Source: a virus. From it: a DNA stretch of 64,000 nucleotides. Every line of letters begins with the position of its first letter. Positions within the stretch are counted from its first letter, which is position 1. The notes below the pieces were generated by a model, which worked only from the letters and a program-made list of their open reading frames with translations, did not search any database and was not told the DNA's origin. A program made the position numbers and the translations under genes. Positions 18,275 to 20,477 of this stretch are shown here, piece after piece. The DNA is taken from positions 62,001 through 126,000 of the IMG/VR virus record IMGVR_UViG_3300046318_000439; one strand, 5' to 3'.

Positions 18275-18344
18275 TGTTGGTGGGTAATTCTGTTACGAGG
18301 AAACCCACCGAAACCCTAAGCAGTGTTTAGGCTGCTAATGCGAA
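18275..18344 (-). ncRNA. Displaced tmRNA 3' end: second FALAA-stop tag end plus two hairpins
   Basis: On the minus strand 18344-18327 reads TTC GCA TTA GCA GCC TAA, encoding FALAA-stop, the classic end of a tmRNA tag. The stop lies in a hairpin (CCTAA/TTAGG, 18315-18331). A further 7-bp hairpin (GGTGGGT/ACCCACC, 18279-18309) follows. This matches the order of elements expected at the 3' end of a tmRNA coding piece. No resume codon or 5' domain is next to it. I interpret it as the original tmRNA end, pushed away by insertion of the GIY-YIG gene. Confidence 0.65.
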
Positions 18345-18360
18345 CTTAAATGTTTGAATT

Positions 18361-18368
18361 TATAAATA
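18361..18368 (+). promoter_or_regulatory. T4-type late promoter for the GIY-YIG gene
   Basis: An exact TATAAATA lies 33 bases before the ATG at 18401. The same octamer precedes the HNH endonuclease at 27308, so both homing endonuclease genes appear to be late-expressed. Confidence 0.6.
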
Positions 18369-18400: not shown

Positions 18401-18952
18401 ATGACAGTTCATTTTGTATATATGTGGTTTGATCGTGTGCGCAAAATGTTTTACGTCGGTCAACATACTGGATCTCTGAATGATCAATACACTTCTTCTT
18501 CACGTTGGCTAGCTGGAGAGATACGTTATCGTCCAGCCGACTTTAAACGTCGCATCATTCGTACATTCAGGACTAAGCATGAAGCTCAGCTATATGAAGG
18601 CAGACTACTAACGCTCATCCGATCCAACGAGTTTGGCTCGAGGTATTATAACCTGAAGATGGGTGCACCTAAAGGCAACTTGCCTTGGAATGCTGGTAAA
18701 ACTAATGTATATTCGAAAGATACGTTAGATAAAATGTCGACCGCCAAAAAAGGACGGCCTTCTCACAATAAAGGTAAACTGAGCCCACTATCAGCCCAAA
18801 ACGGTAAAAAGGGAGCTTCAAAGCTCGCCAAAACTGTAACAGGGAGAAGAATGGCTACTAGGCTAGATGGTACACGGTACTGGATATATCCAGATGTAGA
18901 TTGTTTGGGTGATAAGGAACAATCTACAAATCCTCATTCGATCACTGCTTAA
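18401..18952 (+). CDS. GIY-YIG homing endonuclease with NUMOD3 repeats
   Basis: The start is placed at ATG 18401, after AGGGAAA and the late promoter. The 183-residue product begins MTVHFVYMWFDRVRKMFYVG, a GIY-YIG variant, with Arg and Glu candidates in FKRRIIRTFRTKHEAQLYEG. The second half has NUMOD3-type DNA-binding motifs (NLPWNAGKTNVYSKDTLDKM, KKGRPSHNKGKLS). Such enzymes cut allelic sites lacking the insert. The gene lies antisense to, and inside, the tmRNA gene: its stop is in the same TTAA as the tmRNA tag stop. Confidence 0.85.
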   Translation: MTVHFVYMWFDRVRKMFYVGQHTGSLNDQYTSSSRWLAGEIRYRPADFKRRIIRTFRTKHEAQLYEGRLLTLIRSNEFGSRYYNLKMGAPKGNLPWNAGKTNVYSKDTLDKMSTAKKGRPSHNKGKLSPLSAQNGKKGASKLAKTVTGRRMATRLDGTRYWIYPDVDCLGDKEQSTNPHSITA

Positions 18953-19091
18953 GCAGCGAGAGCGAAGCGGCTATCATTAGCTGCAATTACATTTATTTGC
19001 TTCTTCGGCCGAGTGTCCTCAACCCTATCGTCTTTCACATTGACGTGTTGCCGTCTCTACTATCTCACGCTGTCGAAACTGTTTCAGGCCC
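18949..19091 (-). ncRNA. ssrA: tmRNA coding piece with tag ANDSRFALAA
   Basis: It starts GGGCCTG, then AGTTTCGACAG, the D-loop-like TTCGAC element of tmRNA. A region able to fold as PK1 follows, then the tag frame: GCT AAT GAT AGC CGC TTC GCT CTC GCT GCT TAA at 18981-18949. A preceding GCA (18984) could be the resume codon, giving one extra Ala. The tag stop sits in a palindrome (CTGCTTAAGCAG). Beyond it a 10-bp hairpin (18896-18905 with 18918-18927) may close the 3' end; it lies inside the antisense endonuclease gene. Confidence 0.8.
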
Positions 19092-19095
19092 AATA

Positions 19096-19152
19096 GAAAG
19101 TATACTACAGCTTTCAGTTACGATACCCCGTAGCACCCCTTAATATACTTTC
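19096..19152 (-). other. Intervening segment of the tmRNA precursor, hairpin-forming
   Basis: Directly after the CCA, GAAAGTATA (19152-19144) pairs perfectly with TATACTTTC (19104-19096), just before the coding piece. This nine-bp stem would extend the acceptor stem in the precursor. It would present both ends to RNase P and 3' nucleases, as expected for a permuted tmRNA transcript. Confidence 0.75.
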
Positions 19153-19207
19153 TGGTGGACCTGCCCGGTACTGCCCCGGGGTCCAACATGCCTTCGCTTT
19201 GAAGGGA
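19153..19207 (-). ncRNA. ssrA: tmRNA acceptor piece
   Basis: The piece ends in an encoded ACCA (19156-19153). Inward from it are the acceptor strand CAGGTCC, a 5-bp T-type stem (CCCGG/CCGGG) around a seven-base loop GGCAGTA, the P2 strand GGCATGTTG and a small hairpin (CCTTC/GAAGG). The loop lacks the usual TTC of a T-loop, which is odd and should be compared with other two-piece tmRNAs. The true 5' end is set by processing; 19207 is an estimate just after the upstream small gene. Confidence 0.8.
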
Positions 19208-19321
19208 TTACAACAATTCTTTTTTACGAGTTACCAAATGGTATATTACCCAAAAATATATATTAACTGTAGTAGCAATGCCCCATATAAAGGTCCAGTG
19301 CCAGTAGTCTATTAGTATCAT
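19208..19321 (-). CDS. Small membrane protein, 37 residues
   Basis: The ATG at 19321 opens MILIDYWHWTFIWGIATTVN and a second hydrophobic half ending in a basic tail (RKKELL). It is one membrane segment and ends one base before the tmRNA acceptor region. There is no clear ribosome site, so it is tentative. Confidence 0.45.
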   Translation of the reverse strand: MILIDYWHWTFIWGIATTVNIYFWVIYHLVTRKKELL

Positions 19322-19333
19322 AATTATTATATA

Positions 19334-19561
19334 TTAAAATGGAGCGTCAGGCAAGCTATTTAACCACTTCTGCTTCTCAAACTTTGGTTTCTTTAGCTTG
19401 GCTATCTCCGTCAGTGTCAAAGAAGGATCGCCGTTCATAAAGTGTTCTGCATCCTCACGAGAGAAGAACCGCCGAAGCGGTCCGTCCTCATCACTTACTA
19501 CGAATCTACGAACTGGTCTGAATGGCTCAGGCAGCTTCAGCAAATGTAACGGCAGTTTCAA
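19334..19561 (-). CDS. Hypothetical protein, up to 75 residues
   Basis: The frame starts with TTG at 19561 inside the end of the DUF932 gene. No in-frame ATG lies before residue 42, so TTG or CTG initiation is needed. The composition is basic and proline-bearing (VRRFVVSDEDGPLRRFFSRE), with real coding character. Function unknown. Confidence 0.55.
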   Translation of the reverse strand: MKLPLHLLKLPEPFRPVRRFVVSDEDGPLRRFFSREDAEHFMNGDPSLTLTEIAKLKKPKFEKQKWLNSLPDAPF

Positions 19562-20477
19562 GAGCTTTTACCTTTAAGTTCTTATTAGCACCAAACCATG
19601 CTGACTGCAAGCGTGTGTCTGCTGAGCGACCGATTTCATGGTCAGTCAAATATGTCACAGCATTAAATGCTTGCCACCAGCTACCTTCTGCAAACTTATG
19701 ACCTGGTTGTGTATTCAATACTTCCAAGGCACGGGTAGCAGACTTTGACAACTCTTTACGTTGTGGGCCTTTTTCTTTATTGTAGGCAAGCACTGGGAAG
19801 ATTGAGTTAAAGTATTCTTTAACAGACTCACCATTGTAACGCTTGCTACCCAAGAATGCAGCCATCTCTTTGTACTTCGCCAACTTCTCAGTAGCAATAC
19901 CAAGAGTTTGTTTCACTTCATCAGCATCAAACACTGTGCGGTGGTTTTTCTTAACCATGCGATCAGCTTTTTGGTTGAGTGATAATGTTAGCGTGTTATT
20001 GCATACAACACGAATGGGAGTAAAGCGAACATCGATGCATTGACCGAACCGATGAGGATTTGTAAACAGTAGATATGAATCAACTTGATCTCCTTTAAAT
20101 AATTCAAATGAATCTTTGACCTTAGCCAAAGCCCATACGATCTGTCCATTTCTTAATGAACCAGCTGTATGCATTTCCATATCACCAGCTTTACAGTATT
20201 CATCAAAGAAGTTAAATGCTTCATGGTTCTGAACTGGGTTCCATTCATTAGACACAACGCCTAAGATAGAATCATCAGAAGAGCGTGTTAGGGCAGACCA
20301 ACCAACATTCACTTGATTACCATTAATATCAGCAAACGCTGGAATCTTTTCTACTGTCCAATCTAAACCAGCCTTTTGTAACATCTGAGCAGGAGATAGG
20401 TCGCTAGGAACTCGCTCGCCTAAACCGTGCCATGGTAATTCGCCTGCATATGCCATTGTTTCAATTTCGTGCGCCAT
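19527..20477 (-). CDS. DUF932 (TIGR03299-type) phage/plasmid protein
   Basis: A 316-residue protein with the family start AYAGELPWHGLGERVPSDL and the core SLLFTN-like segment YLLFTNPHRFGQCIDVRFTP followed by RVVCNNTLTLSL. DUF932 proteins are common in large phages and plasmids; their job is not established. It is the first gene after its own promoter (20543-20571), so probably early-expressed. Confidence 0.85.
   Translation of the reverse strand: MAHEIETMAYAGELPWHGLGERVPSDLSPAQMLQKAGLDWTVEKIPAFADINGNQVNVGWSALTRSSDDSILGVVSNEWNPVQNHEAFNFFDEYCKAGDMEMHTAGSLRNGQIVWALAKVKDSFELFKGDQVDSYLLFTNPHRFGQCIDVRFTPIRVVCNNTLTLSLNQKADRMVKKNHRTVFDADEVKQTLGIATEKLAKYKEMAAFLGSKRYNGESVKEYFNSIFPVLAYNKEKGPQRKELSKSATRALEVLNTQPGHKFAEGSWWQAFNAVTYLTDHEIGRSADTRLQSAWFGANKNLKVKALETAVTFAEAA

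Follow-up and report, generated by a model that had tools for sequence, protein, structure and literature searches.

Two-piece, permuted tmRNAs account for 53 of 133 distinct phage tmRNA structures, including one in the T4-like phage Melnitz (PMC9004378), and the current tmRNA database lists 79 bacteriophage sequences (PMC11915505). Mobile elements have also been described at tmRNA genes, such as LAGLIDADG endonuclease genes in self-splicing group I introns located in the T loop of standard tmRNA, and genomic islands and prophages that integrate at these genes by means of integrases (PMC11915505). In the phage DNA analysed here, a free-standing gene for a GIY-YIG homing endonuclease has probably entered the tag frame of a permuted tmRNA of a T4-like phage, with the tmRNA rebuilt around a tag that is presumably not a target of the enzyme.

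The window, meaning the whole 64,000-nt stretch of DNA that was analysed, belongs to a 202-kb IMG/VR record carrying T4-type genes (single-strand binding protein, gp6-like baseplate protein, ribonucleotide reductase, and tail tube), and an earlier note on this DNA was right in assigning it to a T4-like phage. Direct reading, ARAGORN, and Rfam models together identified a permuted two-piece tmRNA on the minus strand at 18895-19215 (Table 1). ARAGORN called a permuted gene at 19245-18858 with the tag AANDSRFALAA, and RF04321 (tmRNA_permuted) was matched over the whole model (1-213) with 112 bits against a cut-off of 47 (E 5e-21). The covariance search that had been proposed as a check was positive for the permuted model, whereas RF01850 (beta_tmRNA), matched at full length (1-331, E 3e-25), reached 83.7 bits, 0.3 under its gathering cut-off of 84, and RF01849 (alpha) was matched in one part only (54.5 bits). 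From these alignments, it is reasonable to read the window tmRNA as closest to the betaproteobacterial form. The structural features claimed in the earlier note were all present on the minus strand: an acceptor half with encoded CCA upstream of the coding half, an acceptor stem of GGGCCTG and CAGGTCC, a P2-type stem joining the pieces, an intervening segment of 61 bases continuing the acceptor stem, and a coding half ending in ANDSRFALAA-stop. By direct reading, the acceptor stem (GGGCCUG/CAGGUCC) comprises 7 bp including G3-U70, the alanine identity pair. In the fold of 19170-19081 it is stacked on the long precursor stem, with -32.4 kcal/mol compared with a shuffled mean of -21.3 kcal/mol (z about -3.6). 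The tag frame is open, and AANDSRFALAA-stop provides a ClpXP-type hydrophobic end. A search of the 202-kb record turned up no SmpB gene. Judged by its sequence, the tmRNA would mature into two RNAs, be charged with alanine, and act in SmpB-dependent trans-translation.

Table 1. Features of the tmRNA and endonuclease locus, in window coordinates.
Feature	Position	Strand	Basis
tmRNA acceptor piece with T arm	19153-19215	-	RF04321 and RF01850 alignments, ARAGORN
Acceptor 3' strand CAGGTCC	19163-19157	-	Direct reading
A, then encoded CCA	19156, then 19155-19153	-	Direct reading
Intervening segment, 61 nt, predicted to be removed on maturation	19092-19152	-	Precursor-stem fold, inverted repeat I1
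Coding piece, 5' part, first pseudoknot region	18985-19091	-	Model alignments, 89% identity to L004 over 19079-18996
Acceptor 5' strand GGGCCTG	19091-19085	-	Direct reading
Tag frame of the presumed functional tmRNA, AANDSRFALAA-stop, DNA recoded relative to target tag	18949-18984	-	
Replacement 3' stem-loop of coding piece, 11-bp stem	18895-18928	-	Fold of -11.1 kcal/mol, z -7.0
GIY-YIG homing endonuclease gene, 183 aa	18401-18952	+	phrog_314, GIY-YIG residues, I-TevI fold match
T4-type late-promoter-like octamer TATAAATA, candidate	18361-18368	+	33 nt upstream of endonuclease start codon
Displaced original tmRNA 3' end, AAGTTCGCATTAGCAGCCTAA (codons K-F-A-L-A-A-stop), with stem-loop 18309-18279	18278-18347	-	

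In itself, the window tmRNA is ordinary and of a known kind. Permuted phage tmRNAs are published, and the novelty that the earlier note saw in one from a T4-like phage had been anticipated, for example, by phage Melnitz (PMC9004378). A permuted tmRNA was called by ARAGORN in about 45 of 80 viral loci fetched via the neighbouring DUF932 gene, with many different tags. The gene for the DUF932 protein (window 19527-20477, minus strand) lies a short way upstream of the tmRNA, as it does in many related phages. Unusual tag ends (FLMAA, DYRMVA, double stop codons) were observed at L009, L019, L043, and L091, several of these without an endonuclease. The range given in the earlier note covered the tmRNA as far as the replacement 3' stem-loop and missed that an endonuclease gene has inserted, that the original 3' end is displaced beyond it, and that the tag has been replaced.

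The endonuclease gene is convergent with the tmRNA and overlaps its 3' end. The last codons run antisense through the replacement 3' stem-loop, and the stop codon is located at that of the tmRNA, inside the tag region; the beta_tmRNA alignment runs through this stem-loop to the end of the model. The protein matches the homing endonucleases of phrog_314 (E 1e-12), while PF01541 was over its cut-off on the L084 homologue and below it on the window protein itself. R35, E66, and N84, corresponding to the conserved Arg, Glu, and Asn of GIY-YIG enzymes, are invariant in the family alignment A2. For the AlphaFold model, the only plausible PDB matches were to the catalytic domain of I-TevI, the best two with a probability of 0.96-0.98 and a weak E-value (0.08), and searching solved structures by sequence brought up no relative of use. 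Among isolates, homologues such as SegE and proteins of Sinorhizobium and Rhizobium phages reach 33-50% identity at most; neither of the two inspected adjoins a tmRNA. The octamer TATAAATA is also found in L088 and L089; since the T4 late-promoter octamer is not enriched within the window, it is given as a candidate only. Between the two tmRNA ends, the endonuclease gene is the only gene, with no recombinase or integrase, and the two ends flanking it are of different types rather than identical repeats.

The displaced end was detected as a second, partial RF01850 match at 18368-18280 (model positions 216-304 only, E 4e-4), which contains ..TTCGCATTAGCAGCCTAA, the FALAA tag end, and a 3' stem-loop. 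By blastn, this piece is 90-96% identical to the ends of uninterrupted tmRNAs in L005, L006, L011, L022, L029, and other loci. The closest relative by DUF932 protein (95%), L004, has a syntenic empty site with no endonuclease at its tmRNA, and its flanks share 87% (upstream gene) and 85% (downstream region) DNA identity with the window. The L004 tmRNA is uninterrupted, with the tag ANDEKFALAA; empty-site tmRNAs of the L004 type have the tag end GTTCGCATTGGCAGCC. Its body is 89% identical to the window over 19079-18996, where the match stops, and its tag end matches again only at 18347-18325, beyond the endonuclease. Thus, the presence of the endonuclease is polymorphic at one and the same site, occupied in the window and empty in L004. 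In most members of the family, the displaced copy, located by the endonuclease promoter, is similar to the uninterrupted site but reads GCAAAC-6 nt-GTTCGC, compared with a spacing of 8 nt there; one idea, by analogy with I-TevI, is that the stranded old tag could act as an operator of the endonuclease.

The same arrangement recurs across viral contigs. Searching these with the endonuclease alone retrieved 8 loci, with a permuted tmRNA called in 7 and the other cut by the contig end, and a search with a small alignment of the family retrieved 51. Among the 40 closest loci, the displaced tmRNA tail adjoins the endonuclease start codon in all 40, and the endonuclease is convergent with a permuted tmRNA in 38, the other two contigs ending first; the 11 more distant GIY-YIG loci have neither tmRNA nor displaced tail. 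The displaced end begins at the tag in every locus of the endonuclease family, and after deduplication the occupied loci comprise 19 distinct tmRNA bodies, a minimum for the number of phage tmRNAs with this arrangement. The target sequence GTTCGCATTRGCAGCCTAA is found at at least 138 places, some contigs being counted twice. Among the matches listed, 128 are uninterrupted tmRNA tags, none of them with this endonuclease, and the remaining 10 of the 138 are displaced ends, all with it. The relatives with this arrangement are all metagenomic contigs; no isolate phage with it was found among the isolates with endonuclease homologues that were examined. In INPHARED, the tmRNA DNA had no match, and the surrounding genome region yielded just a short snippet of T4-like SSB. 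In a second subfamily (L211-L237, e.g. L232 with GTAAAAGCAAACTTTCAAGTTCGCATTTAC), the displaced old tag is a near-palindrome with paired changes between loci, located downstream of the endonuclease start and adjoining the endonuclease promoter region. One locus, L278 (9370-9512), in which the displaced tail comes straight after an acceptor piece, was considered as a deletion of the coding half and the endonuclease and set aside, as it lies less than 50 nt from the contig end and may be an artefact.

The earlier note had also read the tmRNA as a strong clue to host and origin. The tag type does fit a betaproteobacterial-type tmRNA; nevertheless, the host inference is weak, since the 19-mer common to these phage tags is present in 0 of 84,980 bacterial and archaeal species genomes. 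The endonuclease was likewise not found in a scan of these genomes, and because both scans were empty, no host is named and host ssrA as a target is unsupported. Other GIY-YIG genes are found at the same spot. At L266, L271, and L272, a gene of a different GIY-YIG family (..YAYLREDGTPYYIGKGCG..) is convergent and directly 3' of an AANDSRFALAA tmRNA. At L051 (6445-6672), L059 (10312-10539), and L079 (7945-8103), the phage tmRNAs are of the alpha type and have a long tag (..SNDNVPYSAMKVAA); behind them comes a convergent, distant GIY-YIG gene of a third type, 46-51% identical to L245, and no displaced tail was seen there. These occurrences suggest a general role of the tmRNA 3' end as a landing place.

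The presumed functional tag of every occupied tmRNA differs at 4-8 nt from the 16-mer target present in the 128 listed uninterrupted tmRNAs, with AANDSRFALAA, ANDNAFLMAA, ANDERFLMAA, ANDESYRIAA, ANEESFLMAA, ANDELFLAAA, ANDNVWALAA, AANDARFLMAVNA, and others represented. Each occupied body is 76-96% similar to an empty-site tmRNA; in 14 of 20 cases this similarity breaks off no more than about 13 nt from the resume codon. Seven bodies carry almost identical DNA (96%) for AANDSRFALAA, with only 50% identity in the 75 nt that precede it. Mantel tests on 19 loci related tag similarity closely to that of the 3' tail (r 0.84, p 0.0002) and hardly to that of the tmRNA body (r -0.06); similarity of the endonuclease correlated weakly with that of the body (r 0.24-0.43). 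Tag and 3' stem-loop thus form a cassette of about 90 bp with sharp edges on both sides that is independent of the tmRNA body. A candidate explanation in which tag and endonuclease simply move together lost ground with the Mantel correlation between the two (r 0.02), and for the same reason the cassette is not simply co-inherited with the gene. Non-target tags are also found without the endonuclease (L017, L019, L034, L257, L258, and L260), which, together with the lack of tag-endonuclease correlation, indicates that the cassette is a shuffled unit.

The invasion of the tag frame probably proceeded as follows. Before insertion, the gene encoded a tag of the ANDxxFALAA type and, behind it, a 3' stem-loop of its own. 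This old end now lies stranded beyond the endonuclease gene, and the working copy of the tmRNA has been rebuilt with a different tag-plus-stem-loop cassette (here AANDSRFALAA), in whose DNA the old tag sequence is missing. What the sequences show are the products, namely the tmRNA, the endonuclease, the displaced end, and the replaced tag, together with the empty-site relatives and the recurrence; the steps leading to them are inferred. In the most likely course, the endonuclease would cut the conserved tag DNA of an empty tmRNA allele in a co-infecting phage, and the cut would be followed, by analogy with T4 endonucleases, by resection and invasion of the occupied allele (PMC2988022). Repair of the break would copy the non-target tag, the tail, and the endonuclease into the cut gene, the stranded old end providing the homology arm on the right. 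Homing of this kind would leave a new tag that is presumably immune to cleavage, and the rebuilt tmRNA could still rescue ribosomes with host SmpB while adding another tag. As the displaced end represents a target-type tag at the window, L084, L088, and L089, insertion and tag replacement coincide at these loci. We lean, by a small degree, towards a wider proposal in which the endonuclease family is specialised on the phage tmRNA tag frame and each insertion swaps the old tag, so that a selfish element would rewrite and diversify the tag peptide (from FALAA to FLMAA, SYRIAA, FLAAA, VWALAA, and others).

Tag diversity could also have arisen with the endonuclease as a bystander to the exchange. 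Tag-plus-tail cassettes would then be shuffled by ordinary homologous recombination independent of the endonuclease, which would persist only beside tags that it cannot cut, so that its pressure selects tag diversity in an arms race and does not deliver the tags. The absence of correlation between tag and endonuclease, the joint variation of tag and tail with sharp edges, and the occurrence of the same tags with and without the endonuclease are in line with this account. We hold it to be possible but rather unlikely, given that the displaced ends show a target-type tag before insertion, most clearly at the four loci named above. The endonuclease may deliver the tag cassette or may only select for it. 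Less probable still is that the tmRNA 3' end was first duplicated in tandem and the endonuclease gene inserted later between the copies. In one subfamily the displaced copy does retain a decayed tag start (GTAAAnGCAAAC..AAGTTCGCATT); however, no endonuclease-free duplicated tmRNA end occurs among the 138 listed target-sequence places, and the two ends of one locus are usually of different tail types (C and A in the window), which makes this order of events doubtful. That the tmRNA represents no more than an integration scar or a pseudogene in decay, as its overlap with another gene and the lack of an SmpB gene in the record might suggest, is very improbable in view of the intact acceptor stem with G3-U70, encoded CCA, full-length covariance matches, and open tag frame, the open tags kept by occupied tmRNAs across 19 bodies, and an SmpB that the host could supply. 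Equally improbable is an ordinary permuted tmRNA with an unrelated endonuclease beside it by chance: free-standing endonucleases are abundant in T4-like phages (PMC2988022) and the window tmRNA looks complete, but an accident of position is refuted by the displaced tails (40 of 40 family loci, with a tmRNA in 38) that begin at the tag every time and are missing from the distant GIY-YIG loci, and by the GTTCGCATTRGCAGCCTAA survey.

Invasion of the tag frame by the endonuclease gene would offer trans-translation research a reason for the strong variation among phage tmRNA tags, and the loci provide natural tag-swap pairs whose tmRNA bodies are almost alike. In the field of mobile elements, it would represent a tiny endonuclease element that invades the coding core of an RNA gene, which is rebuilt beside its displaced old end; the rebuilding resembles integrase action at tRNA genes, yet proceeds with neither integrase nor intron. 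The need of phages for tmRNA, the tags they tolerate, and endonuclease pressure as a driver of tag change are now testable.

In the open-access full-text literature, no report of the endonuclease-tmRNA arrangement was found, the only related case being the LAGLIDADG genes in tmRNA group I introns (PMC11915505). With other phage permuted tmRNAs, as represented by phage Melnitz (PMC9004378), the models RF04321 and RF01850, and the sequences in PMC11915505, the window shares the gene order, intervening segment, encoded CCA, tag frame, and origin in aquatic T4-like phages; it differs in the replaced 3' part of its coding piece, which overlaps a convergent endonuclease gene, and in the displaced original 3' end beyond. 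The Seg GIY-YIG endonucleases of T4 are similar in fold family, T4-like setting, late-promoter-like octamer, polymorphic presence, and association with RNA genes, the closest to the window enzyme being SegE by sequence (31%) and SegB by its location at RNA genes (PMC2988022, PMC13096335). Seg genes are intergenic, whereas the window family is found inside the tmRNA tag frame, with the gene end rebuilt from other sequence. The LAGLIDADG genes in tmRNA introns are likewise homing endonuclease genes within a tmRNA gene (PMC11915505), but the window case has no intron and its site is the tag of a permuted tmRNA. Integrase islands at tmRNA genes also occupy the 3' part, reconstitute the gene, and leave a displaced 3' fragment; in contrast, the window element is only about 600 bp long and consists of an endonuclease gene with no integrase, and the end that reconstitutes the gene differs from the displaced one. 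A further parallel is mobE within nrdA of Aeromonas phage Aeh1, an endonuclease insertion giving genes-in-pieces. The regulation of mobE is mentioned in PMC2988022. In both cases, a conserved gene harbours a free-standing endonuclease gene and remains functional; in mobE/nrdA, however, both gene halves are in use, whereas in the window the original 3' half is bypassed by its replacement.
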